From positions 62,001-126,000 of the forward strand of contig NZ_MVDI01000006.1 of assembly GCF_002939305.1 (NCBI RefSeq): 64,000 bases of DNA. Direction: 5' to 3'. Both the position numbers and the translations under genes were made by a program. The DNA comes from Chroococcidiopsis sp. TS-821. Its GTDB lineage: Bacteria; Cyanobacteriota; Cyanobacteriia; Cyanobacteriales; Chroococcidiopsidaceae. Each line of letters opens with the position of its first letter. The stretch's first letter is position 1. A model generated the notes under the pieces. That model searched no databases and was not told the origin of the DNA. It worked only from the letters and a program-made list of their open reading frames with translations. Below, piece by piece: positions 11,354-40,095 of this stretch.

Positions 11354-11563
11354 ATGAAGCCAGGAATGAAAGTTATTCAAAAACAGCAAGTAGGCAATCG
11401 CTGGGTTTGGTTGTGTGAAGAATCGCTGCTAGGGCAAGGATGCCGCGAGTGGGCAACATATGTATCAATGTCACCTGATGAAACTCGCACCGAATACGGG
11501 CATTACTTCGTAAACAAAAGCAATGCAGTTCAAGATTATCAGGCACGGTTAAACAGCATCTAA
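11354..11563 (+). CDS. Small hypothetical protein
   Basis: 69 residues. ATG is preceded by GGAGAATGAGAT, a good ribosome-binding site. It is Trp- and Tyr-rich (GNRWVWLCEE, REWATYVSM) and looks like a compact beta protein. I do not recognise it. Its place in the same-strand run of small genes suggests a plasmid or phage accessory role. Confidence 0.65.
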   Translation: MKPGMKVIQKQQVGNRWVWLCEESLLGQGCREWATYVSMSPDETRTEYGHYFVNKSNAVQDYQARLNSI

Positions 11564-11639
11564 GCCAAGCGTCCTGAGCAAGACGTTAAAAGGCTCGTCA
11601 AGTTTTTTCAAATCACTAAAAATACACAGGGTCGTAACA

Positions 11640-11987
11640 ATGCTATTTACAGATTATCCAAATGCGATCGCGCGCATTCAAAGGCAAATCCTCGACACAG
11701 ACCAGCACCTAATCGGATTGACAGAGGGCGTAAAGATTTTTGAAGCAGAGATTGATAAGGCGATCGCTTTTGATACATCGCTCAAAAACGAAGCTCAGCG
11801 AAAAGCGCGGCGAATTGAGTTGCAACAAACCGACGGCAATTCTTACGCTGCATCACGGTTACTAAGAGAAACAAAGGAAAAGCGCGAAATACTAGCAATT
11901 GAGCTTGAATTGCTACGAAATCAATTTGCAATTCTTAAGTTAGAAAAGCGCGAGGCGATCGCTCGTTTAGAGGTTGAACTAGCTTAA
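11640..11987 (+). CDS. Coiled-coil hypothetical protein
   Basis: 115 residues, almost entirely helical with long charged stretches (KNEAQRKARRIELQQ, LLRETKEKREILAIELELL), so a coiled-coil dimer is likely. It lies upstream of the SWIM-type and ArdA genes and of the Sak4-like ATPase; small coiled-coil proteins often sit beside phage single-strand annealing genes, but nothing in the sequence proves that here. Confidence 0.6.
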   Translation: MLFTDYPNAIARIQRQILDTDQHLIGLTEGVKIFEAEIDKAIAFDTSLKNEAQRKARRIELQQTDGNSYAASRLLRETKEKREILAIELELLRNQFAILKLEKREAIARLEVELA

Positions 11988-12042
11988 ACAGTTTTACTTC
12001 TGTGCCACTGCTTTTAACCGAGTTAGTGGCAACAACAACATT

Positions 12043-12492
12043 ATGATTGAAATCTCCTTAGAACTTGCATCACAACACTTTTCTAAATATGCGATCGCTG
12101 AGTTGCTTCATTACTTGAATAGGTCAAAGTGGGAGCAGAAATACAACAAGCATCAATTAAAAGTTGAGCTTTGGGCTGTTGGCATTTGGGTAAGAGAGGC
12201 AGGAATTATTAGCTATCAAGATTTAGCCTGTTTCATTCGCGAAACAACCTTACTTAAGGCGTCAGGGTTACGAGTAGAAAAGCGATTGCCCAACTTATTT
12301 TTAGTACAAGGAGTGCAGAAATCAAAGTATGCAGTGGTGCGACAAAACAACCATTTTCGCTGTGAATGTATGCTCTATCAATGCCGAGATAATCGTTTGA
12401 GAACCGAGCTACCTCAACTATTCGAGGCATTGAATCGAAAGATATTTTGTCATCACACAGTAGCAGCATACTTATCGTCAAAAAATCAATAA
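12043..12492 (+). CDS. SWIM-type zinc-finger-like protein
   Basis: 149 residues. The C-terminal part has Cys-x-Cys (FRCECMLYQC) followed about 23-25 residues later by Cys-x-His (FCHHTVAAYL), the CxCx(n)CxH signature of SWIM zinc fingers, which bind DNA or proteins. The N-terminal half is helical with a Tyr/Trp-rich stretch (LHYLNRSKWEQKYNKHQLK). Between them is LPNLFLVQGVQKSKYAVVRQ, the usual strand before a SWIM knuckle. No enzyme domain is attached, unlike most SWIM proteins. It sits 98 bp before ardA. Confidence 0.6.
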   Translation: MIEISLELASQHFSKYAIAELLHYLNRSKWEQKYNKHQLKVELWAVGIWVREAGIISYQDLACFIRETTLLKASGLRVEKRLPNLFLVQGVQKSKYAVVRQNNHFRCECMLYQCRDNRLRTELPQLFEALNRKIFCHHTVAAYLSSKNQ

Positions 12493-12537
12493 CTTTCGTC
12501 CCTGTAGGTAGGCGGTTAGACCTTCACTTTAGCTGCT

Positions 12538-12583
12538 CATCCCCGCCAAGAGACGGCAGCAACTTCCATACATCAAGAGGTAA
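12538..12583 (+). repeat. Duplicated leader, copy 1 (before ardA)
   Basis: CATCCCCGCCAAGAGAC, a GGCAGC core and CATCAAGAGGTAA precede the ardA start. The same modules in the same order precede the next gene (13175-13222). The terminal AAGAGGTAA contains the ribosome-binding site. Confidence 0.7.
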
Positions 12584-12589
12584 AAATCA

Positions 12590-13117
12590 ATGTGTGAAGA
12601 TAAAACACCGCGTATCTATATAGCTTGCCTGGAAGCATACAGCAAGGGTGTACTACACGGAGCGTGGCTCGACTGCAATCAAGGTATAGAAAATATTTGG
12701 AAAGGAATTGATGAGGTTTTAAGAACATCGCCAGTCCTAGGCGCAGAGGATTGGGCAATTCACAGTTATGAAAACTGGCAAGGTATTTCGATTGGGGAAT
12801 ACGAATCGATTGAGCGCGTTGCAGAGTTAGCTGAATTATTACAGGTACATGGTAGAGCATTTGCAGCTTACTACAACTATTACGGTAGCGACGCCAGTTT
12901 AGCGGGCTTTCAAGAATGCTACGAAGGAAAGTACGAAAGTGAGGAAGACTTTGCTTACAGCATTTGGTACGAGTTGGGCAAGTTAAAGCTGTTAGAAACT
13001 TGGGGCATTCTTGATATTTACATTGACTGGGAAGCTGTAGCCCGTGACTTATTCATCGATTCTTACTTTTCGGTTGAAACTGGTTACAAAGAGGTGTACG
13101 TGTTCAATCGCTATTAA
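12590..13117 (+). CDS. ardA: Antirestriction protein ArdA
   Basis: 175 residues, the usual ArdA length. The start PRIYIACLEAYSKGVLHGAWLDC, the middle EDWAIHSYENWQG and the C-terminal YIDWEAVARDLFIDSYF match the ArdA family pattern. The protein is strongly acidic, as expected for a DNA mimic. ArdA dimers occupy the DNA groove of type I restriction-modification enzymes and protect incoming mobile DNA. Its presence supports the view that this block came in as a conjugative plasmid or integrative element. It has an unusual duplicated leader upstream shared with the following gene. Confidence 0.92.
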   Translation: MCEDKTPRIYIACLEAYSKGVLHGAWLDCNQGIENIWKGIDEVLRTSPVLGAEDWAIHSYENWQGISIGEYESIERVAELAELLQVHGRAFAAYYNYYGSDASLAGFQECYEGKYESEEDFAYSIWYELGKLKLLETWGILDIYIDWEAVARDLFIDSYFSVETGYKEVYVFNRY

Positions 13118-13174
13118 TAATTGAAACTCCGACCTGAGTATGTTGTTAAACTGCTCAAATCCAAGGTTGCCGCC

Positions 13175-13222
13175 CATCCCCGCCAAGAGACAGCGGCAGC
13201 CTCCCCTTACATCAAGAGGTAA
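13175..13222 (+). repeat. Duplicated leader, copy 2
   Basis: CATCCCCGCCAAGAGAC, CGGCAGC and CATCAAGAGGTAA, as before ardA, with a few changes in the middle. The stop-to-leader distance is also similar. The two genes that follow are not related, so the untranslated region itself was copied. Confidence 0.7.
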
Positions 13223-13227
13223 CTTTA

Positions 13228-13449
13228 ATGTACAACATTGCTCAAGAAATCGAACGCGAGATTGCCGAGTTAGAACAGGAACGAGAACGGCTGATTCGTT
13301 ATTGGTTTGAAATGGGCGAACTCGATTGCTTGCACACTTTACCACCACTTCACCCAGATAACTATTGGTATATGAGCGGGTACTGGGATATGGAGTATCA
13401 GCTAGAAATTGGCTTGAAGCCAGAGCCTATGAGTTTTGAACACTTCTAG
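13228..13449 (+). CDS. Small hypothetical protein with N-terminal coiled coil
   Basis: 73 residues. The first 30 residues form a charged helix (AQEIEREIAELEQERERLIR); the rest is Tyr/Trp/Met-rich (DNYWYMSGYWDMEYQLEIG). No family recognised. It follows ardA and shares its leader sequence, so the two are probably expressed in the same way; it may be an antirestriction accessory or DNA-mimic-like protein, since it is acidic, but this is a guess. Confidence 0.6.
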   Translation: MYNIAQEIEREIAELEQERERLIRYWFEMGELDCLHTLPPLHPDNYWYMSGYWDMEYQLEIGLKPEPMSFEHF

Positions 13450-13458
13450 AACTAACAA

Positions 13459-13484
13459 TGGGGAAGTATAAAACTGCTTCCCCA
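13459..13484 (+). terminator. Hairpin TGGGGAAG / CTTCCCCA
   Basis: 8-bp perfect stem, 10-nt loop, 9 bp after the stop of the 13228-13449 gene. It is followed by ACTACAACC, not a T-run, so termination is uncertain. Confidence 0.45.
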
Positions 13485-13516
13485 ACTACAACCAATTCTG
13501 CATTAGGAATACGTCA

Positions 13517-14368
13517 ATGTTTAAACGCGCAACCAAATCACAAATCAAACTTCGCTTAGCCCTCGTTGGGATTAGTGGTGGTGGAAAAACTTACTCTGCT
13601 TTATCAATTGCTTCCCATTTAGGTAAGAGTATTGCAGTAATTGATACCGAACACGGCAGCGCTAGTAAGTATGCAGACTTATTTCAATTCGATACTTGCG
13701 AACTATCTAGCTTTCATCCTCAAAACTATATCGATGCAATCAACGCGGCGAGTGGTAACTATGACGTGCTGATCGTTGATAGCCTCAGTCATGCATGGAT
13801 TGGTAAAGATGGTGCATTAGAACAAGTAGACCGCATTGCTAAGCGATCGCCCTCTAGTAACACTTTTGCAGCATGGCGCGATGTTACTCCACTACACAAT
13901 CAATTAGTAGAAGCAATGCTACTGTGCCAGAGTCATTTGATTGTCACGATGCGGAGTAAGACTGAGTATGTTATGGAGGAGTACGAAGATAAAGGTAGGA
14001 AGAAGACTAGACCTGCTAAAGTTGGACTCGCACCAATTCAACGCGACGGGCTTGAATACGAATTTGATGTCGTGGGCGATATGGACAAAGATAATAACTT
14101 AATTGTTACTAAGTCTCGATGTCCTGATTTAGTTGGTAGAGTCATTAACAAGCCAGGTAAAGATCTGGCATACTGCCTACGTGCTTGGATGGGCGAACCG
14201 TGGTTGGTGTGGAAATCTGAAGCAGATGCGATCGCCTGGGCAGCTGCTCAATTACCAGAAATGCCGATTGAAGAACTACGACAAGAATTTGATAATTTAC
14301 CTGCTAGCAACGGTAAGAAAGCGCCTGTGTGGGTAGAGCGCGTAGCAGTGCTTAAAGAACCTTTTTAG
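13517..14368 (+). CDS. Sak4-like RecA-fold ATPase (phage/plasmid recombination)
   Basis: 283 residues. Walker A is GISGGGKT at residues 18-25 and Walker B is VLIVDSLSH with Asp88; further on lie IVTMRSKTEYV and an AP.QRDGLEYEFDVV segment typical of the AAA_24/Sak4 group of phage recombinases. These single-domain RecA paralogues help single-strand annealing with an SSB partner. The gene sits at the end of a run of plasmid-type genes. A general name such as AAA family ATPase is safe; the Sak4 role is inferred from family resemblance. Confidence 0.8.
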   Translation: MFKRATKSQIKLRLALVGISGGGKTYSALSIASHLGKSIAVIDTEHGSASKYADLFQFDTCELSSFHPQNYIDAINAASGNYDVLIVDSLSHAWIGKDGALEQVDRIAKRSPSSNTFAAWRDVTPLHNQLVEAMLLCQSHLIVTMRSKTEYVMEEYEDKGRKKTRPAKVGLAPIQRDGLEYEFDVVGDMDKDNNLIVTKSRCPDLVGRVINKPGKDLAYCLRAWMGEPWLVWKSEADAIAWAAAQLPEMPIEELRQEFDNLPASNGKKAPVWVERVAVLKEPF

Positions 14369-15801: not shown

Positions 15802-16683
15802 ATGGCTAAGCCGCTTCGTAAAACCCAGCAGTTCTTCATGCTTACACCTAATGTCAGAGACAAGCTACTTGATGCCAATTTAACAGCTGCTGAATGGCGA
15901 GTTTGGTGTTATTTGGTCAGCCTCGATCCTTTTGGCGATCGCGGAGCTAAATTTTCTCCAGCTGAATTAATGCTTAGATGCGGAATCAAAAAATCAACTT
16001 ACTTTGCCACTAAAGCCAAGTTCCAAAAACTTGGGTTGTTCGACTTCAAGGATGGAACCACTAAAGTTTACAACTTGCAAAGCCATCCTGTTGATACTGA
16101 AGAGTCTGACCATTCTCAACAACAGCAAGTTATTGAGTCCAAGATTTTGGAGTCCGAGTCCAAGATTTTGGAGTCCGAGTCCAAGATTTTGGAGTCCGAG
16201 TCCAAGATTTTGGAGTCCGAGTCCAAGATTTTGGAGTCCGAGTCCAAGATTTTGGAAAATCAACGTCCAAAAGCTGCTTTTAGTAAGGATTCCAGCACTC
16301 CTCAGACTAATCAGACTTATACAGACTTTATACAGACTCTCTCAGAAGAGGAACGAGAGAATTTTGAAAAATTTGTGCGAGACGAATGGCGACGGCGTAA
16401 AGGAGAAGAAATAATCAGCTTGGAGCGTTTCTTGGCAAAAGAAGAAGATTTTAAAAATTGGCGCCAGCGATTTTTAGATGCCCCTGCGGGTCGTAGCGCG
16501 AAAAAGAGGGCGATTGCCACGAGCTATAACTGGCGAAACGATGCTCGATTTGATACGTGGATTTGGGAAGCATTCAATCGCGGTTTTGAGTGGCTTCAAG
16601 AGGATGAAGGCGAACGCGAGCAGCGCAGAGCTTTTTACGATTGGGCTTTTGCAGTCAATGCTTTTGACGGGGTGTGCTTATGA
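15802..16683 (+). CDS. Winged-helix replication-initiator-like protein with ESKILES repeats
   Basis: 293 residues from ATG 15802, chosen because GAGGAGG lies 8 bp upstream; the longer frame starts at 15772. The N-terminal 85 residues look like a winged helix (LTAAEWRVWCYLVSLDPFG, then AELMLRCGIKKSTYFATKAKFQKLGLF), the arrangement found in plasmid replication and primosome-type proteins. Residues about 112-153 are six copies of the heptad ESKILES. The C-terminal half is Arg/Glu- and Trp-rich. Its stop overlaps the next gene by ATGA. The replication role is inference; it could also be a transcription factor. Confidence 0.6.
   Translation: MAKPLRKTQQFFMLTPNVRDKLLDANLTAAEWRVWCYLVSLDPFGDRGAKFSPAELMLRCGIKKSTYFATKAKFQKLGLFDFKDGTTKVYNLQSHPVDTEESDHSQQQQVIESKILESESKILESESKILESESKILESESKILESESKILENQRPKAAFSKDSSTPQTNQTYTDFIQTLSEEERENFEKFVRDEWRRRKGEEIISLERFLAKEEDFKNWRQRFLDAPAGRSAKKRAIATSYNWRNDARFDTWIWEAFNRGFEWLQEDEGEREQRRAFYDWAFAVNAFDGVCL
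16135..16260 (+). repeat. 21-bp coding tandem repeat, six copies
   Basis: The unit GAGTCCAAGATTTTGGAGTCC is repeated without gaps inside the replication-like gene and gives an exact heptad in the protein. The copies are nearly identical at the DNA level, so copy number probably changes by slippage or unequal crossing over without breaking the frame. Confidence 0.85.
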
Positions 16684-21084: not shown

Positions 21085-24000
21085 ATGGCTTTCACCAAGG
21101 AGAATCTGCGTGCCGTGATAACTGGCACAGAAACAGATCGCGTCGAAGCATTGCAACAGTTACTCGGATATCCAATCAAGCAGCGCGATTCACAAGGTTC
21201 TCGATTTTGGTATTTGCGTCCTGGTAAGACTAAATTAGAAGCAGAAGAAACACAACCAATCGCCGTTGGCTTCTATTCTCAACTAAATTCATACACTGAT
21301 AATGAGATTAAAGCATTCTTAACAAGTCCTGAGCAGCAGCAAGAAATCTACGGACATTATGTAAGCCGAATGGCAGAAGACCAACCTGTCATGTACATAC
21401 TTCTACCCAGTCAAGAAGAAACGGGTCGAATCGCTTTGGTTCTACCTACTGAAGGAAAACTACGTCAGCGGCAAATCCAAACTTTTGAGTGGAATTCAAC
21501 ACAGTTATTAAAAAGCAGACTTCCTCGTCTACAACAGAGTTCGCTACCAGTTGCAGGAAAAGCGTTATTTTCTACACCTCTAGTCGAGTGGGTGTTCTAC
21601 GATTCAGTCGCAACGGCAAAAGACCTGGCACAGCGATTAGCGGCGATCGCGCGTCAGATCGAAGAAATCATACCCACTGTTTATCGTGCGGAATCCGAAA
21701 ACGGATACTTGCATCAACTGTTTACCAGTTTCCAAAAAGAGTTACTACCCAATCTCAAGGTAAGTTCCACTGACGAGAAAGAATATAGTTTTGCTGATAT
21801 TTATGCTCAGACGGTTGCTTATGGGTTATTTACAGCCAGAGTATTCAGCTATGAGCGCAATCAAGACGACCTCAAAACTACAGAGTTCAATCGCCAAACA
21901 GCGTGGAATTTACTGCCAGAAACAAACCCGTTTCTACGTAACTTGTTTCGAGATATTTCCGAGCGATCGCCTGTAGAGTTGGGTGACGAGTTGATTGAAG
22001 CGATCGTCGAAATCATCTCTTACTTGCGCGTTGCCAAGATGGAGGTGATTTTGCGGGACTTTCACCAAAAGATTAACCAGGAAGATATTGTTATTCGGTT
22101 CTACGAAGACTTCCTAAGTGCTTATAAACCCCAGATGCGAGAACGGCGCGGAGTTTATTACACCCCACAGCCGGTAGTGTCTTACATTGTTCGCTCTGTT
22201 GACCATATTCTCAAAAAAGATTTCGGACTAAAAGATGGACTTGCAGACGCAACTAAGGTGCAGGTAAAGTCACCAAACGGCAAAGGAGTAACTGAGACGC
22301 ATAAGGTTTTGATCACAGACCCTGCCGTTGGTACAGGGACCTTCCTTTACGAAGTCATTAACCATATTCATAAATCATTTGCATCCAAACCAGAACAATG
22401 GTCAGATTACGTTGCTCAAGACTTGCTACCTCGACTGCTGGGCTTTGAACTATTGATGGCTCCCTACGCAGTAGCTCATATGAAGTTGGGGCTGCAACTT
22501 GCTGAATTGGGCTATAAATTTGACACAGCAGAAAGATTGCGGGTTTATCTAACCAACACCTTGCAAGAGGCTTTTCATATCCCTCCAGCGAACAATCATT
22601 TTTCTAACTTGTTTTGGGGAGAAGCAGATGCTGCTAATCAAATCAAAGAAGCAGCGCCAGTAATGGTTATACTCGGTAATCCTCCCTACTCTGGTCATTC
22701 TGCTAATAATGGTGATTGGATTAAAAATCTACTCAAAGGTAAGGATACTTTAACCGAGCAACAGACGAGCAGCTATTTTGAAGTCGATGGCAAGCCATTA
22801 GGCGAAAAAAACCCGAAGTGGCTAAATGACGATTATGTCAAGTTTATTCGGTTTGCTCAGTGGCGGATTGAGAAAACGGGCTACGGTGTCTTAGCGTTTG
22901 TTACTAACCACAGTTATTTAGATAATCCTACATTTCGAGGAATGCGTCAAAGTTTGATGGAAACCTTTGATGATATTTACGTACTAGATTTACACGGTAA
23001 TAGTAAGAAGAAAGAGAAGTGTCCTGATGGTTCAAAGGATGAAAATGTCTTTGATATTCAGCAGGGAGTTTCTATTAATATTTTTGTTAAGCATCCAAAT
23101 GGTAGCAAGAATAAAGCAATTATACATCATGCAGACTTGTGGGGCGATCGTGATTGTAAATACGATTGGCTTGAAAAAAACGATTTGACTACAACACAGT
23201 GGATTAATTTACAACCTCAATCCCAATTTTATTTGTTTATTCCTCAAGATAATGATTTGCGAACCGAGTATGAAAAAGGCTGGAAAATTACAGAAGCAAT
23301 GCCAGTTAATGTACTTGGTTTTCAAACACACCGCGATCATTTTGCTATCGATTTTGATAAGACATCTCTGTATAAAAGAATTGCTGATTTGTATCAATAT
23401 AAAATAAGTGATGAGCAATTACTCAAACAGTTTGATTTAGGTACATGGGACATTAAAAAAGCAAGAATTAAATTACGTAGCATGGCAGACTGGGAAACTG
23501 CATTCAGCAAGTGTCTTTACAGACCTTTTGATGTACGAGAATGCTATTTTAGTGATGCTGTAATGGATCGTCCTCGTAGAGAACTAATTAGTCATGTTGC
23601 AGGTAAAGATAATCTTTGTATTGGAATTGGTAGACAAGTTTTTCAAGGAAATTTTTGCCATGTAATTGTTTCATCTAAACCTATAGAAGCTAATGTTATT
23701 CAGCCAGCAAACGGATGTGTAGTTTTTCCTCTTTACATTTATTCTCAAAACAGAATCTCACAAAAATTAATTTTTGACAAACAGCGTAGTTTTAACTTTA
23801 CTCAAGTTTTCTTTAATGCTGTTAAAGATAAACTTAACTACACCCCCACCCCAGAAGCCATCTTCTACTACATCTACGCCATCCTTCACTCCTCTACCTA
23901 CCGCACTCGCTACGCGGAATTCCTCAAAATAGACTTCCCTCGCGTACCCCTTACAAGCAGCGATCGCCTCTTTCACCAATTAGCTGCCTACGGCGAAGAA

Positions 24001-24345
24001 TTAGTAGCCCTACACTTGATGAAATCACCCGAATTAGATAACAAAATTACCCAGTTTGAAGAACGCGGCGGTCATCGAATTATTGATGCTGGACATCCTG
24101 AGCATCAGCAGGGTGACGTAGTAATTAATAAAAAAGGAGATCGCTTTATAGGAGTTCCCGAAAATGTTTGGAACTTCTATGTAGGTGGTTATCAAGTTTG
24201 CCAAAAATGGCTCAAAGACCGTAAAGGACGCACTCTTACTCAAGAAGATATCGACCACTACCAACGCATCGTTATCGCACTCCAAGAAACCATACGGCTG
24301 ATGCAACAAATTGATGAAGTTATCCCAGGCTTCCCATTACCTTAA
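21085..24345 (+). CDS. Large DNA methyltransferase (type ISP/IIG-like)
   Basis: 1,086 residues. SAM-binding motif I is DPAVGTGTFLYE near 412 and the catalytic motif IV is NPPYSGH near 532, the mark of amino-methyltransferases (probably N6-adenine). Before them is RGVYYTPQPVV, the usual motif X, and after them a target-recognition-like region with PFDVRECYFSDAVMDRPRREL. The first 300 residues have no nuclease motif that I can see. The C-terminal region resembles the type ISP enzyme tail, but the Mrr nuclease and helicase of that family are missing from this chain and appear to be supplied by the next gene. Confidence 0.88.
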   Translation: MAFTKENLRAVITGTETDRVEALQQLLGYPIKQRDSQGSRFWYLRPGKTKLEAEETQPIAVGFYSQLNSYTDNEIKAFLTSPEQQQEIYGHYVSRMAEDQPVMYILLPSQEETGRIALVLPTEGKLRQRQIQTFEWNSTQLLKSRLPRLQQSSLPVAGKALFSTPLVEWVFYDSVATAKDLAQRLAAIARQIEEIIPTVYRAESENGYLHQLFTSFQKELLPNLKVSSTDEKEYSFADIYAQTVAYGLFTARVFSYERNQDDLKTTEFNRQTAWNLLPETNPFLRNLFRDISERSPVELGDELIEAIVEIISYLRVAKMEVILRDFHQKINQEDIVIRFYEDFLSAYKPQMRERRGVYYTPQPVVSYIVRSVDHILKKDFGLKDGLADATKVQVKSPNGKGVTETHKVLITDPAVGTGTFLYEVINHIHKSFASKPEQWSDYVAQDLLPRLLGFELLMAPYAVAHMKLGLQLAELGYKFDTAERLRVYLTNTLQEAFHIPPANNHFSNLFWGEADAANQIKEAAPVMVILGNPPYSGHSANNGDWIKNLLKGKDTLTEQQTSSYFEVDGKPLGEKNPKWLNDDYVKFIRFAQWRIEKTGYGVLAFVTNHSYLDNPTFRGMRQSLMETFDDIYVLDLHGNSKKKEKCPDGSKDENVFDIQQGVSINIFVKHPNGSKNKAIIHHADLWGDRDCKYDWLEKNDLTTTQWINLQPQSQFYLFIPQDNDLRTEYEKGWKITEAMPVNVLGFQTHRDHFAIDFDKTSLYKRIADLYQYKISDEQLLKQFDLGTWDIKKARIKLRSMADWETAFSKCLYRPFDVRECYFSDAVMDRPRRELISHVAGKDNLCIGIGRQVFQGNFCHVIVSSKPIEANVIQPANGCVVFPLYIYSQNRISQKLIFDKQRSFNFTQVFFNAVKDKLNYTPTPEAIFYYIYAILHSSTYRTRYAEFLKIDFPRVPLTSSDRLFHQLAAYGEELVALHLMKSPELDNKITQFEERGGHRIIDAGHPEHQQGDVVINKKGDRFIGVPENVWNFYVGGYQVCQKWLKDRKGRTLTQEDIDHYQRIVIALQETIRLMQQIDEVIPGFPLP

Positions 24346-24366
24346 ACTTTCCTATTCTTGTCTCTC

Positions 24367-27300
24367 ATGTTAGAAACAGTTATTCAAGACCTAATTCGCC
24401 AACAACGCCCCTACTATCTACCACAAGGCAACCCAGTTAAAGGTTTGGGCGGTCAATATTGGCTCGTGTTTCAGCATCGAGATGCCGATAAAGGTGGTAG
24501 CTTCCTGAAAAATATCGTTTCACTACTCGGTTTCAAAGATAAAGCCGTTTCTCATAAAGTATTCCGGATTGACCCCACTGGTGCCAAGATTTATAATTAC
24601 AACCCACGTAAGCCAGGAGATCTCCCTTCTCCCGCGCTGCTACGAACGGGTAGTCTTCAAGTTATCGAGAAATTTCTATTACTAGAGCGAACTACCAAAG
24701 AACCTGCGCTTCTCAGTGGTAGCTTTCGTGAAATCAAAGACATTAAACGCCGCTACAATTTACCCGCACAGCTGGACTTTTACAACCAAGCGATCGCACA
24801 AATATTGGAGCGTAGCAGTATCTACCGCCGCTCAACTGCCTACTTCGATAGCGGTGTTCTCAAACTTTACGCTGAACCGCTACAAGCAATCGTCCAAACC
24901 GACGGACAAATTCGCTTACTCCTAGACTGGCAAGGTTTTACCAAACGTGCGGATGTTGCAGAATTAGATAAACTACTCGACTCTACTTACCGCGCTGATT
25001 TTATTGGGCGCACGTTGCAGGAATTTCTACAGGGACTTGAGGAGAATGCGTTTAGCGGTACGCAGATTATGGCTGAATTAGTTCGCCTGGGCTTTTTAGA
25101 AATCAAGCTGGTTAACATGAATCAGCAGTGTGCTTTGTACCACAGAAAAACAGGCATCTTCAGCGATCGCGTTGATAATCACATTCTGCACGAAGGCTCG
25201 GACAATTTCACTCGTGCTGCACATTCGCGCAACGCTGAAGGCACTATTTTCCTACGCTCCTGGGATTCACAAGAAGACCAGGAAACAATCGAGCAAAGTA
25301 TTGAAGAATTTGATCGCGAGTGGCAGCAGCAAAACCTGGCGCACGACCTGACGCAAGAATTTCTCCGTCAAGTATTACAGGAATACGACCGCCGCGCATC
25401 ATCGCATCAACCGCATATCGAGCAAATTACCCCTGACGAGCTTTCCCCAGGTAAAACAACTGCTGTCAAAATTACGGGTAACAATTTGGATCGAATTGAG
25501 GCGATCACCGTTCCCGATAACTCGTTGGTTGAAATTAAGATTACCGACCAAACTTCCGAAGAAATCGCCGCAGATGTAACTGTATCTCCTGACCATCCGC
25601 CCCAACCGATTGCTGACTTGACGATTACTGATTCGTTGGGAGAGGAGCGAACCGTTCAACCACAGCAACCAATTCGGGTAAGCAAAGTTGAAGAGATTCC
25701 TAACTTTGACGAGATCGAAGGTTTTAAGCAAGCGGTCGAATTGATTTTGGCAGGACAGCACGGTACACCAAATGATTTTCTTTATTGGTTAGCTCAACAA
25801 CGTCCTCGACAATTTCGCGTCGAGCAGAGTGAGGTACTCGACCAACTAGTGAGCCAGGGAATACTGTTTGAACACCAAAAATCAGGAGCGCAACATTGCT
25901 TGCGCGTTATGCAAGATTTTGGCGTTGCAGTTTGCGCCGATGCCGTAGGTCTTGGTAAAACTCGCCTTGCTGCCGCAGTCGCGCGTCTGGCTCGACAGCA
26001 AAGCGGACAAACAAAGATTGCCATTATTGCCGCTCAGAAGCTGCATGACAACTGGAAGCGCGAGATGAACGAACTTGGTTTCCGTGATAGCGATTACGAG
26101 CGGTATAACAAAAACCTAATGAGCCGCAAGGGTAATCGGTTTATTGATGACTTTAACCGTTATGGTGGACCCGACCTTGTGATTATTGATGAGGCGCACG
26201 AAGGCATCCGTAATTACAACAATCGGATTCACAAATTATGCCTACAGATCAAAGAACGCGATCGCGCATCTGGGAGGCAGCGCCAATTTCTCTTACTCAC
26301 CGCAACTCCTTGGAATAACCGCCGTCAAGATATTTACAATATCCTGCAACCTTTTCTGACGCGACCGGAAGGTTTTAGCGATGCTGGTTTTCCATTAGAA
26401 GTTGCACAATGGTTTCAAAACCGCGAAACTGGAGTCGAGCAGTTCACGGATGATTCAGCATTGTTCCGGCGCACGTATCGCGAACTGTTCTTGCAGCGCA
26501 CCCGTCAGATGTTACGCGAGGCGATGCCTGACTTCAACGTTTACGCCAGGCGGCAAGCCGAATGGTTGCCTGTAGAGTTTGAAGCGAGTACCGAACAGGC
26601 ACTAGAGCAAATTTTCACGCAGTTTGAAACCCAACTTTATATTCCCTTTGCCGACCCTGTACGCTATTTAACAGGTAGTGTCGAGCAACGCGCTCTATTG
26701 CAAAACCAGCGCCGTTTCTTCTTACAACGTGCCGAATCGAGTATGTACGCGCTCAAACGTACTATATTCAACTTTCGCGGTCGGATTGAGCAGATGCAGT
26801 CGCGTTTGGGTAACGTTAGTGCCGATGCTGATGGGCTAAAGCAATTTCTTTTACTTCATTACGGCTTTGAGTCTGAACAGACCGAGCGATCACATTTTAA
26901 CTGGCTTGATGACCGCGAAGCATCGGAGCAAGATTACGAAGAGGAAGATGAGGAAGAACCCGAAGTCGAAGTAGAGGAAAAACGGCAGCGACTGCGACGT
27001 ACAATTGACTTTGCGATTGAACGCTTGCAATCCGACCCGAATGAAGCACGCCGCGTACACAACTTAATGTGGTCAGCCTGCGATTGTGATTTGATGCAGT
27101 TGCAAGAGATTCAAGACTTACTCGCAGATGAATTTATCAAAGACCACAAGCGCGAACAAGTTACTCGTAAAGTCCACGAACTCGCGAGTCAGGGAAAAAA
27201 AGTTTTACTGATTTCTACGTTTGCAGATACAGTTTTGGACTATTACCGTTATATGGCTGAAGACGCGGCGGTCGCGCAGCATGGTATTGGTATGGCGATT

Positions 27301-28608
27301 GGCGGAACGAAACGCTACTTTCCCGATACCGATAGTCGCGTTATTCAGGTAGCCCCGCACAATGTTGTCAAAGCAGGACGGCAGCGTACAGGAATTAAAC
27401 GTTACGAGCTTTTCCGGTTGTTTGCTCCTGTTGCAACGTGTCGTCAGGCGTGCGATCGCCCTAACTCAGCAGAAGAAATTGGGGTATTGATTGGTTCTGA
27501 AACGCTCTCAGTCGGTCAGAATCTTCAGGATGCCGATTATTTGATTAATATCGACTTGCCTTGGAACCCAATGACCCTAGAGCAGCGAATTGGGCGAATT
27601 GACCGCCCTAAGCAGCACTTGTGCGAGAAGCTTTATATCTATTACGCCAACAGCGAAAGTCAATTGCTGCGTCAAGCTAGCCGTCTTGCTAATCTTAATA
27701 AGAAACTGGTTGGCGCAGATTTAGCTAACGATGAAATCCGAAATTCAATCAATGTTGACGATTTGGGCGCGTCAATTTATGGCGATACTCTCTTTGACGA
27801 TACAATCCTGCCAGGTTATGTTGAGTTTATTCGCGAGTTAGTCGCGAAAAGACGACAAACTCAAGAAAGCTTCCAAGAAACGCTGTACCGCAGCGCCGAA
27901 ACTTCAAGGGAACTGTATACGCAACAAGAACTCCTGTTCTCTGAAGATGTCAACCAACGGCTCAAAGCTTTTGGCGACGATTATCAAGCTAATCCCATTG
28001 CTCTCGGTAGGCGCACGGGTGAGAAAGATGAAGCACTAGCCCTAGCTGCTTTAACGATTCAATACTTCGGTCCCAACGGCGAACTCATTCCCGATCATCA
28101 AGATCTCGTCTTTTGGAACGACCAAACAGGAGAACGCGATGCTTATGGAAACGCGATCGCGACTGCTTGCAAAACGCCTGAAGCTGGAGATATGTTTTCG
28201 TTTCGCTATCTCCATGCAATGGCTCAAACGCTCTATACGCAACTTGTTGACCTGAAACACCAAAGAGTAAAAGAGCTTAGTCAACCGGAGACGATTGAGA
28301 ATGTAAGTGTCACATCCGAACGGCTCAACAAAATTCAACAACGAATTAGTGCGCTAGACCAGTTACCAGATGGACTAGAGCGCAAAATGGTGAAAGATAC
28401 GCTCAAAAAGCTTAACGCTTGGAAAGGAATCAAGTCAGTTCAAAAGCTCTTGCGAGAGTATACCGACGGAGCAAAAGCTCAGTTAGAAACCGCTATTTTT
28501 GTTGCTGAATTAGTAAAGGATACTGATGAGAAAAACCTGATTTTGAATAACAGTGTTAAACCAACAACTATCTCTATTTCACTGTCTGCTCTTTTATTAA
28601 GAGCTTGA
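24367..28608 (+). CDS. PLD nuclease - Ig/TIG-like - SNF2 helicase protein
   Basis: 1,413 residues from ATG 24367 (a TTG three codons earlier is also open), 21 bp after the methyltransferase. Residues about 140-320 are a phospholipase-D-like domain: STAYFDSGVLKLY, then the HxK motif YHRKTGIFSD (His near 259) and GSDNFT. Residues about 346-438 read as an IPT/TIG-type Ig fold (ITPDELSPGKTTAVKITGNN). The SNF2 motor follows: GLGKT near 530, DEAH near 608, LLTATPWN, and motif VI QRIGRIDRPKQ near 1075. An acidic run lies near 860-870. With the methyltransferase this makes a probable two-gene restriction or anti-phage system. Confidence 0.88.
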   Translation: MLETVIQDLIRQQRPYYLPQGNPVKGLGGQYWLVFQHRDADKGGSFLKNIVSLLGFKDKAVSHKVFRIDPTGAKIYNYNPRKPGDLPSPALLRTGSLQVIEKFLLLERTTKEPALLSGSFREIKDIKRRYNLPAQLDFYNQAIAQILERSSIYRRSTAYFDSGVLKLYAEPLQAIVQTDGQIRLLLDWQGFTKRADVAELDKLLDSTYRADFIGRTLQEFLQGLEENAFSGTQIMAELVRLGFLEIKLVNMNQQCALYHRKTGIFSDRVDNHILHEGSDNFTRAAHSRNAEGTIFLRSWDSQEDQETIEQSIEEFDREWQQQNLAHDLTQEFLRQVLQEYDRRASSHQPHIEQITPDELSPGKTTAVKITGNNLDRIEAITVPDNSLVEIKITDQTSEEIAADVTVSPDHPPQPIADLTITDSLGEERTVQPQQPIRVSKVEEIPNFDEIEGFKQAVELILAGQHGTPNDFLYWLAQQRPRQFRVEQSEVLDQLVSQGILFEHQKSGAQHCLRVMQDFGVAVCADAVGLGKTRLAAAVARLARQQSGQTKIAIIAAQKLHDNWKREMNELGFRDSDYERYNKNLMSRKGNRFIDDFNRYGGPDLVIIDEAHEGIRNYNNRIHKLCLQIKERDRASGRQRQFLLLTATPWNNRRQDIYNILQPFLTRPEGFSDAGFPLEVAQWFQNRETGVEQFTDDSALFRRTYRELFLQRTRQMLREAMPDFNVYARRQAEWLPVEFEASTEQALEQIFTQFETQLYIPFADPVRYLTGSVEQRALLQNQRRFFLQRAESSMYALKRTIFNFRGRIEQMQSRLGNVSADADGLKQFLLLHYGFESEQTERSHFNWLDDREASEQDYEEEDEEEPEVEVEEKRQRLRRTIDFAIERLQSDPNEARRVHNLMWSACDCDLMQLQEIQDLLADEFIKDHKREQVTRKVHELASQGKKVLLISTFADTVLDYYRYMAEDAAVAQHGIGMAIGGTKRYFPDTDSRVIQVAPHNVVKAGRQRTGIKRYELFRLFAPVATCRQACDRPNSAEEIGVLIGSETLSVGQNLQDADYLINIDLPWNPMTLEQRIGRIDRPKQHLCEKLYIYYANSESQLLRQASRLANLNKKLVGADLANDEIRNSINVDDLGASIYGDTLFDDTILPGYVEFIRELVAKRRQTQESFQETLYRSAETSRELYTQQELLFSEDVNQRLKAFGDDYQANPIALGRRTGEKDEALALAALTIQYFGPNGELIPDHQDLVFWNDQTGERDAYGNAIATACKTPEAGDMFSFRYLHAMAQTLYTQLVDLKHQRVKELSQPETIENVSVTSERLNKIQQRISALDQLPDGLERKMVKDTLKKLNAWKGIKSVQKLLREYTDGAKAQLETAIFVAELVKDTDEKNLILNNSVKPTTISISLSALLLRA

Positions 28609-38770: not shown

Positions 38771-38807
38771 TTTGCTAGAATCTAAAGTAACGAACTGCGC
38801 AAGTGTA

Positions 38808-39503
38808 ATGAACAAAAAAGCCTTATGGCAACAGGTGCACTCAGCAACTTCAGAAGAACAGAAATTAATTGAACGAGTTCTTGCTTCCTCCGCAGCACTT
38901 AAGCCAGCGCTGATAGAAGCGTTGTCAGAGATGAATAAATCGACAGCGCGGAGTAAATTTTTGCAATACGTTTTGGAAACAGCGCTTGCTGTCAGTCGAG
39001 AAGTTAAGATTGCTGATACCGATTTGGACGATCCTCAAACAGGATTTGAAACGATGGTTAAAGTGTTCGCGCGTCCAGAAGCACTTAAAGTACTTGCTCC
39101 TGCTGACCCCTTGGCAGCTGCTCGGTTGAAGGGAGTGCAGGTCAAGCAAGAGTTGTTGTATGGAGACGGACAACCACTCAAGAGCGAGGAAGTGGCACAG
39201 TTACTGCACATCACTCGGCAAGCAGTAGACAAGCGACGGTTAAAAGGACAATTATTAGGGTTATCGCTAGGCAGGAGGGGTTACTTGTATCCAGTTTGGC
39301 AATTTCAAGCAGGGCAAGTGCTACCAGGTCTAGAGCGAGTTTTAGCTGCACTCAAAGATTACGACACTTGGACTCAGTTGATGTTTTTAAAAACTGGTGA
39401 CGTGCGTTTGGATGGCGCTACTCCGCTAGAGCGCTTGCAAGCAGGAGACATTGATACAGTAGTCTGGGCAGCAGAATGTTATGGCACCCCAGGAGCCGCT
39501 TGA
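38808..39503 (+). CDS. Xre/MbcA/ParS-type antitoxin
   Basis: 231 residues from ATG 38808 (a longer frame from 38772 adds 12). It contains a helix-turn-helix-like region (LKSEEVAQLLHITRQAVDKRRLKG) and the C-terminal GDVRLDGATPLERLQAGDIDTVVWAAE, typical of the DUF2384/Xre-MbcA antitoxin toxin-binding domain. It is much longer than usual at the N-terminus. The toxin gene starts 23 bp before its stop, the standard overlapping antitoxin-toxin order. Confidence 0.85.
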   Translation: MNKKALWQQVHSATSEEQKLIERVLASSAALKPALIEALSEMNKSTARSKFLQYVLETALAVSREVKIADTDLDDPQTGFETMVKVFARPEALKVLAPADPLAAARLKGVQVKQELLYGDGQPLKSEEVAQLLHITRQAVDKRRLKGQLLGLSLGRRGYLYPVWQFQAGQVLPGLERVLAALKDYDTWTQLMFLKTGDVRLDGATPLERLQAGDIDTVVWAAECYGTPGAA

Positions 39504-40095
39504 GGAGCCGTTAGCCCCGCATCCAGAACCGCCGCCTGATTTTGGCAGCCGCTCGTTACCTGTAGTTGAGAGTAATAGTCCTTGGTATCGATTGAACCCA
39601 GCACGTTACTCAAGTGCGTTATTTTTTGACCGCAGCGGCAGAGGTAGGTTTGACGGGGCTGAGCTTGGTTATGGCATTTTGTATGTTGGAGCCGACGAGT
39701 ACGCTGCTTTTATCGAATGCTTCGGTCGCGTCCACGGGGCGCGGGGCGTAGCCGAATCAGCACTGCAAATGCGGAATTTAGTACGCATTACATCGGCGCG
39801 TCCCTTGCTTTTAGCTGACTTGACAGGTAGTGGCTTAGTGAAGTTAGGAGCCGATTCTCGAATTGCTTCTGGTCCGTATTTGATGGCGCGGAAGTGGGCG
39901 CAGGCAATTTGGGAGCATCCGAGCGCCGTAGATGGACTGAGATACCATTCGCGGCACGACGATACGCGCATCTGTTGCGGACTTTTCGACCGAACGAGAT
40001 CGCTTTTGCGCGAAGAGAACTTGGGTAATTTGGTCGAGCAACATCCCGTACTACTTGCTCAGATGTTGGCGCACTATGACTATGGCTTGCTGTAA
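39481..40095 (+). CDS. RES-domain toxin (NAD-degrading)
   Basis: 204 residues. RES domain: WYRLNPARYSSALFFDRS, GRFDGAELGYGILYVGADEYAAFIECFGR with the Arg-Tyr-Glu positions of the family, and a central RHDDTRICCGLFDR. Known RES/MbcT toxins cleave or phosphorolyse NAD and halt growth. The start overlaps the antitoxin gene. The first 40 residues are Pro-rich and may be translated from a later start, for example near SPWYRLN. Confidence 0.88.
   Translation: MAPQEPLEEPLAPHPEPPPDFGSRSLPVVESNSPWYRLNPARYSSALFFDRSGRGRFDGAELGYGILYVGADEYAAFIECFGRVHGARGVAESALQMRNLVRITSARPLLLADLTGSGLVKLGADSRIASGPYLMARKWAQAIWEHPSAVDGLRYHSRHDDTRICCGLFDRTRSLLREENLGNLVEQHPVLLAQMLAHYDYGLL

Follow-up and report, generated by a model that had tools for sequence, protein, structure and literature searches.

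A near-constant hairpin loop before ardA and unrelated genes: a family of structured cyanobacterial RNA leaders that appears to be uncatalogued

The DNA analyzed here, a stretch of 64,000 nucleotides from Chroococcidiopsis sp. TS-821 (hereafter the window), contains a gene for the anti-restriction protein ArdA, followed by a 73-aa open reading frame for which searches of Pfam, NCBIfam and PHROG returned no match (Table 1). Homologues of the 73-aa protein are encoded in L160 and L186 and on cyanobacterial plasmids, including L052. An earlier note on this DNA had called attention to a leader common to the two genes, and the letters bear this out: a 17-mer, CATCCCCGCCAAGAGAC, occurs at 12538-12554 and again at 13175-13191, and a downstream block, the 15-mer TACATCAAGAGGTAA, at 12569-12583 and 13208-13222. 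The equal spacing described in that note is real as well: counted from its first base, the 17-mer stands 52 nt before the start codon of ardA and 53 nt before that of the 73-aa frame. The GGCAGC core, also reported there for both leaders, belongs to the 3′ arm of a hairpin whose 5′ partner had escaped mention (GCTGC in copy 1, GGTTGCCGC in copy 2). In the ribosome-binding region, an AGAGG(T/C) site is seen again in the leaders of L149, L186, L189, L193 and L052. The window stems start 40 and 48 nt beyond the stop codon that precedes each of them (counted from its last base), and both leaders probably lie within a longer transcript.

Table 1. Features of the two leaders and their genes in the window.
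Feature	Coordinates	Strand	Details
Conserved element 5′ of hairpin 1	12497..12526	+	CGTCCCTGTAGGTAGGCGGTTAGACCTTCA; alternative pairing partner for the 5′ arm of hairpin 1, in competition with the hairpin
Hairpin 1	12532..12560	+	Arms 12532-12536 GCTGC and 12556-12560 GCAGC; loop 12537-12555, conserved core 12538-12554
ardA ribosome-binding region	12571..12583	+	CATCAAGAGGTAA
ardA, anti-restriction protein, 175 aa	12590..13117	+	Pfam PF07275, E 4.2e-36; PHROG 2059, anti-restriction protein
Hairpin 2	13165..13201	+	Arms 13165-13173 GGTTGCCGC and 13193-13201 GCGGCAGCC; loop 13174-13192, conserved core 13175-13191
73-aa gene ribosome-binding region	13210..13222	+	CATCAAGAGGTAA
73-aa ORF	13228..13449	+	Homologues beside or near ardA in relatives

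Some other features of the window may be recorded here. About 8 kb downstream of the anti-restriction gene lies a defense-type pair (21085-28608) in which a 1086-aa protein that matches type IIG restriction enzyme-methyltransferases (E 2.5e-233) precedes a 1416-aa protein with PbeA-like and helicase matches. Two overlapping genes at 38772-40095 resemble, by eye, an Xre/RES-type toxin-antitoxin pair, with no match in PADLOC. At 16135-16256, an open reading frame contains 21-bp repeats, several of them perfect and in tandem (SESKILE repeats).

When up to three mismatches are allowed, the 17-mer has two matches in the window against 0.07 expected, a count that none of 100 shuffles reached. At up to two mismatches, the two leader copies are its only matches in the whole 5.23 Mb genome; the reversed pattern gives one. 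The 15-mer has four matches in the window at up to three mismatches, which is not unusual (23 of 100 shuffles reach four), the two exact copies being those of the leaders. In RNA form, the same 17-nt loop, CAUCCCCGCCAAGAGAC, is carried by stems GCUGC/GCAGC in copy 1 and GGUUGCCGC/GCGGCAGCC in copy 2. Since the loops are identical but the stems and the upstream sequences differ, the two copies are not the product of a simple duplication.

Folding the two leaders, a check proposed in the earlier note, gave a divided answer. Leader 2 folds well beyond its shuffles (z-score -3.50; 0 of 200 as good), but the 100-nt leader 1 does not (z -0.37). Hairpin 1, with its short stem, is not the lowest-energy fold of the isolated 100-nt leader, a competing structure being preferred; the same preference is predicted for the leader of L149. 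With more flanking sequence (a 137-nt context for hairpin 1), the enclosing pair has a probability of 0.98 in hairpin 1 and 1.00 in hairpin 2. Sequences resembling the upstream element of Table 1 are also found before the hairpins of L051, L149 and L187 and before that of the 73-aa leader of L186; none is apparent by eye before hairpin 2 or in L189 and L193. Where present, the element would compete with the hairpin and may be part of a switch.

Leaders of this kind recur in relatives of the window genome. The exact loop precedes ardA in Tolypothrix campylonemoides (L187) and Nostoc mirabile (L186), and, in a Brasilonema locus (L149), it precedes an ardA of which 11 codons are present before the contig diverges and breaks off. 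In another Brasilonema locus (L160), the exact loop lies before the 73-aa homologue, directly past an ardA. The same kind of stem also bears a second loop type, CAACCCGACCAAGAGCA with close variants. With this loop, the leader is found before ardA (L189, L193), before the 73-aa homologue (L186 and a Fischerella plasmid, L052), before a 90-aa gene (L189, L245) and before an HNH endonuclease gene (L242). The arrangement in L189 mirrors that of the window, with leaders before ardA and the next gene that have a common loop and different stems. Association with ardA, whose absence in relatives would have counted against the earlier note, is thus present in L189, L193, L187, L186 and, for 11 codons, L149, yet it is far from general: the 388 genomes of the order examined hold 30 ardA-like frames, in 26 genomes, and a leader of either type is found with only 3 of the 30. 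The plasmid search suggested in the same note was similarly two-sided. None of seven cyanobacterial plasmid ardA genes that we fetched, all annotated with an N-terminal extension, is preceded by the leader, but the 73-aa homologue of L052 is. Seven plasmid records encode a 73-aa homologue; the leader is present in L052 and absent from four others that were read.

The distribution of the hairpin was explored with covariance models. A first model, R1, was built from eight hairpins with copies of the loop, including one on a viral contig (L033). Window hairpin 2, not used in training, scores 31.9 bits (E 5.7e-5) with this model, and hairpin 1 is matched in part, with 20.1 bits (E 0.034). Among the 388 genomes, 93 have a match at E≤1 and 45 at E<0.001; the 90 loci drawn from this list (L055-L144) represent most, not all, of the places. 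We read 99 hairpin matches, a set that includes the window and a few other loci. Of these, 64 precede a gene for an uncharacterized protein of about 78 aa, and among the remaining 35 are ardA-type leaders, leaders with HIP1 stems and several apparent chance or coding matches. Most of the leader carriers read are genes other than ardA. HIP1 palindromes raise weak model scores, and the weaker HIP1 hairpins are unreliable; six loci that combine HIP1 stems with an exact CCCCGCCAAGAGA core (L087, L090, L094, L108, L109, L120) are probably members. A second model, R2, scores hairpin 1 at 54.6 bits, but this hairpin is in its training set. R2 has matches in 128 of the 388 genomes at E≤0.5; seven matches, in six genomes, reach 44 bits or more and the rest 29 bits at most. 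The latter group was rejected as a source of new members, consisting of chance matches, HIP1 hairpins and hairpins recognized before, such as the second leader of L189 and 78-aa leaders.

Two further kinds of HIP1 hairpin may be mentioned. In the window's own family, L006, L100 and L129 (at 1485, 1513 and 1506) contain a repeated element in which GGTTGTGGTA precedes a hairpin with a HIP1 stem and the loop ATCTCCGCCAAGAGT; it may be a related hairpin. Among Nostocales, L132 and L134, as well as L248, L249 and L250 (near 1500, reverse strand), have HIP1 hairpins with the loop CCAATCCCGC(A/T)AAGA, possibly a third loop type of the leader; in L132 and L134 this hairpin stands shortly 5′ of a gene beginning MAQ(L/S)ENSAQSKLEQF.

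A scan of a collection of 84,980 genomes for the exact 17-mer returned 39 loci, 23 of them cyanobacterial by name. A flanking stem with a score of at least 7 is present at 21 of these 23 and at one of the other 16 (Fisher p=8e-8, a value that is descriptive only, the cut-off having been picked after the scores were seen and the 23 loci being related). The two cyanobacterial loci below the cut-off, L149 and L187, show by eye a stem with a one-base bulge. Constancy of the loop is in part a matter of ascertainment in this exact-match set. In Nostocales and related genomes, the loop recurs, identical or nearly so, on different stems before the 78-aa gene. A plain scan for the 17-mer at up to two mismatches matched 127 of 386 genomes, but many of the two-mismatch contexts are stemless and these counts were set aside. 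Among the matches listed, at least four exact ones lie outside the window genome, all in leaders of the 78-aa gene. On viral contigs, the exact 17-mer occurs at five loci and is flanked by a stem only in L033; the opposite strand of L032 and L034 reads by eye as HNH-type coding sequence. The second loop type was found at 14 viral loci, with a stem score above 7 at none. Membership beyond cyanobacteria is suggestive only, and concerns L182 (an Armatimonadetes metagenome-assembled genome) and L033: an equally good stem arises at random places of the same loci in 34 of 20,000 cases for L182 (16 trials) and 23 of 20,000 for L033 (5 trials).

The element does not correspond to any cataloged RNA family that we searched. 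Against Rfam 15, the window has no match at gathering score, and none even at E≤10 within 11500-14000. Twelve member loci gave six weak matches, all under gathering; one of them, to mir-1911 (20.7 bits, E 9.6), overlaps the L033 hairpin. The models RF01704 and RF01739 match neither the window nor the 12 loci. Searches of open-licence full texts likewise gave no description of the hairpin among the entries read.

The structure is backed by compensatory change. In an alignment of 77 members (67 distinct), 92.3% of the cells are standard pairs, a figure that none of 500 shuffles reached, although the alignment was fitted to the structure and hence favors it. Cells changed on both sides number 54, against 9.7 in shuffles, and again no shuffle of 500 reaches 54. 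Seven of the nine pairs have changed on both sides (matched by 3 of 500 shuffles), and sliding the partners by one column lowers pairing to 26-41%. Within the loop, U3-A16 is invariant, and C4-G15 appears as CG in 54 cases, UA in 7, UG in 3 and another combination in 1, the UA forms falling in two family groups (f6 and part of f5). Taken by itself, this inner helix has weak support: one doubly changed pair is likewise seen in 387 of 500 shuffles, though none has as many such cells. What emerges is a covarying structure in the untranslated region before the starts of several genes, as expected of a structured cis-regulatory leader.

The largest class of members offers a view of how such leaders may be transcribed. 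The 78-aa family is present in 142 of the 388 genomes, with at least 14 matches in several large ones. Members that we scanned (e.g., L158 104-337) have no Pfam or NCBIfam match, and the predicted structure (mean pLDDT 65, no PDB match at E≤0.001) is uninformative as to fold. In most members of the class, the first in-frame start codon lies 25-29 nt beyond the end of the hairpin model. A TTGACA hexamer is found 37-48 nt 5′ of the model in 52 of 58 distinct leaders, as compared to 201 of 4950 random 80-mers. From this position and the usual spacer, transcription would start 0-12 nt before the model, which would put the hairpin close to the 5′ end of the mRNA. A sigma-70-like promoter was sought close upstream of the window copies and not found: promoter-like hexamer pairs between 10300 and 15500 number 10, against 10.4 expected, with none on the + strand of 12500-13230 and none in either hairpin.

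These data bear on two alternatives. The earlier note had raised the idea that ardA is served by a single-strand promoter of the Frpo type, active on the entering single-stranded DNA. Frpo promoters do serve anti-defense genes of the leading region (PMC11541004, in the part available), and the position of the hairpin directly 5′ of an anti-restriction gene would be in keeping with such a role. The Frpo element, however, is described in the same part of that paper as a folded duplex carrying -35 and -10 elements, and the arms seen here are 5-9 bp long, G+C-rich and without such boxes. Moreover, most of the members read have an ordinary promoter upstream of the hairpin, including the largest class, and the + strand of 12500-13230 has no promoter-like pair. 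We consider this explanation highly improbable, the least credible of all those weighed here. Scarcely more probable is a purely structural role, in which the hairpin is a 5′ stabilizer or a processing site and the loop is not specifically recognized. The start position deduced for the 78-aa class would indeed place the stem-loop at the 5′ end, and the window copies are flanked by genes that form an operon-like run; yet a stabilizer would have no need for a nearly identical 13-17-nt loop to persist in distant genomes while the stem varies.

One member locus suggests how the leader might travel. On a plasmid of Gloeocapsopsis dulcis (L051 3939-4120), a single leader is found where the window has two leaders with ardA between them. 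The 80 nt upstream of it resemble copy 1 of the window (72 of 80 positions, against 22 for copy 2) and the 80 nt downstream resemble copy 2 (73 of 80, against 30 for copy 1), with the switch in the loop or next to it. The homologue of the 73-aa protein has a reading frame of 62 aa here. In this comparison of sequences, either ardA was lost from G. dulcis by exchange between the leaders, or it was gained by the window. Such exchange suggests a route by which the leader could reach unrelated genes. It is also a rival reason for conservation of the leader, though not for the compensatory changes. One could envision the loop being kept primarily as a short homology site, or a target for gene exchange, with any RNA role secondary; both the recombinant and the presence of the same leader before unrelated genes fit this. 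A DNA exchange site, however, would require neither compensatory changes in the stem nor a near-fixed distance to the start codon and a conserved promoter in the 78-aa class. We therefore regard a recombination module as unlikely, if somewhat less so than the two preceding explanations.

We favor, at a probability of roughly 0.6, the interpretation that the leader contains a portable cis-regulatory RNA hairpin, whose loop is recognized by a putative factor that sets the translation or stability of the mRNA of the next gene. The hairpin would lie in the untranslated region just 5′ of the ribosome-binding site, with a variable stem displaying a near-constant loop, some 17-20 nt long and either CAUCCCCGCCAAGAGAC or of the second type, probably narrowed by the inner pairs U3-A16 and C4-G15. 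A variable stem combined with a near-fixed loop points to sequence-specific recognition of the loop. The cellular partner would most likely be a protein, possibly a small molecule, and its binding would raise or lower translation initiation or mRNA stability downstream. As a module, the hairpin would have come to stand in front of genes that are not related to one another, namely ardA and those for the 73-aa, 90-aa and HNH proteins in mobile-looking regions and plasmids, and the 78-aa gene in many genomes. The shared control postulated in the earlier note would accordingly be post-transcriptional, in view of the covarying hairpin, its position relative to start codons and the promoter of the 78-aa class; the early expression invoked in the same claim finds nothing to tie it to these leaders.

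Several candidates for the partner of the loop were considered. A pseudoknot between the loop and the ribosome-binding site (AUCC/GGAU in the 78-aa class) was rejected: over 53 rows, one of which (L033) lies outside the class, the mean helix is 4.62 against 4.64 in shuffles, and 286 of 500 shuffles are as high. A search for trans-acting antisense RNA, restricted to the exact complement of the 12-nt loop core (CTCTTGGCGGGG), gave matches in four genomes, solely on the opposite strand of the hairpins themselves. With neither ribosome-site pairing nor a perfectly matched antisense RNA supported, a protein or a small ligand is favored. Autoregulation by the 78-aa protein was also set aside; for all its wide occurrence, a search of the window genome did not find this protein, which is hence not likely to be the recognizing factor there.

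Direct binding of a small metabolite or ion by the loop, gating the ribosome-binding site, would make the element a riboswitch, comparable to the glnA and Downstream-peptide motifs of cyanobacteria, which are held to bind glutamine. Much about the hairpin is compatible with this: the near-constant loop on a variable stem, the inner loop pairs, the site just 5′ of the ribosome-binding site, and downstream genes that are small, as in the Downstream-peptide class (PMC2864571, as far as the available text goes). There is, however, no evident common pathway among the downstream genes, a second conserved helix or tail is not seen across classes, and the loop pairs with the ribosome-binding region no better than shuffled sequences do. 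A riboswitch thus appears a possible but distinctly less probable explanation than a factor-bound regulatory hairpin.

If such a factor exists, one may speculate, quite tentatively, that it belongs to the host and controls the small-protein gene through the loop, and that mobile elements copied the hairpin, thereby bringing anti-restriction genes and their neighbors under the same host signal. Were this true, an uncataloged RNA regulon would be common to host and invaders, and the second loop could mark a diverged factor or ligand. In any event, the leaders appear to form an uncataloged, covariation-backed family in cyanobacteria, with a regulatory effect that we infer. Through a single loop, the family joins a small-protein gene of wide occurrence to anti-restriction genes and others on plasmids or in regions that look mobile, and this offers a direct route to the control of anti-defense genes beyond the conjugative plasmids studied so far. 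The near constancy of the loop should make a pull-down or ligand screen simple.

The properties proposed for the hairpin invite analogies with several known systems. The translational operators of coat proteins and ribosomal proteins are hairpins near a start codon in which the loop sequence is recognized. In contrast to these protein-bound operators, the present hairpin is carried by several unrelated genes and has a putative binder only. The Frpo/ssi promoters of conjugative plasmids likewise place secondary structure before anti-defense genes of mobile elements (PMC11541004); as characterized in the part of that paper available, they differ in that -35 and -10 boxes are lacking here, it is the loop and not the stem that is conserved, and the gene downstream is, in most members read, another one. 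The TAACTGA direct repeats of Beggiatoaceae, for which a possible post-transcriptional network has been proposed, are also recurring intergenic elements put forward as post-transcriptional regulators in distant lineages (PMC4679880, in the portion available). According to that portion, they are direct repeats of another sequence, whereas the element described here is a hairpin. The Downstream-peptide and glnA motifs (RF01704 and RF01739) of cyanobacteria are described as conserved RNAs in potential 5′ UTRs, as our leaders appear to be, and the Downstream-peptide motif, which precedes short genes, is the nearest known kind (PMC2864571). Unlike these motifs, the leader described here has no Rfam match in the sequences scanned, consists of a single hairpin, and precedes ardA and HNH genes as well.
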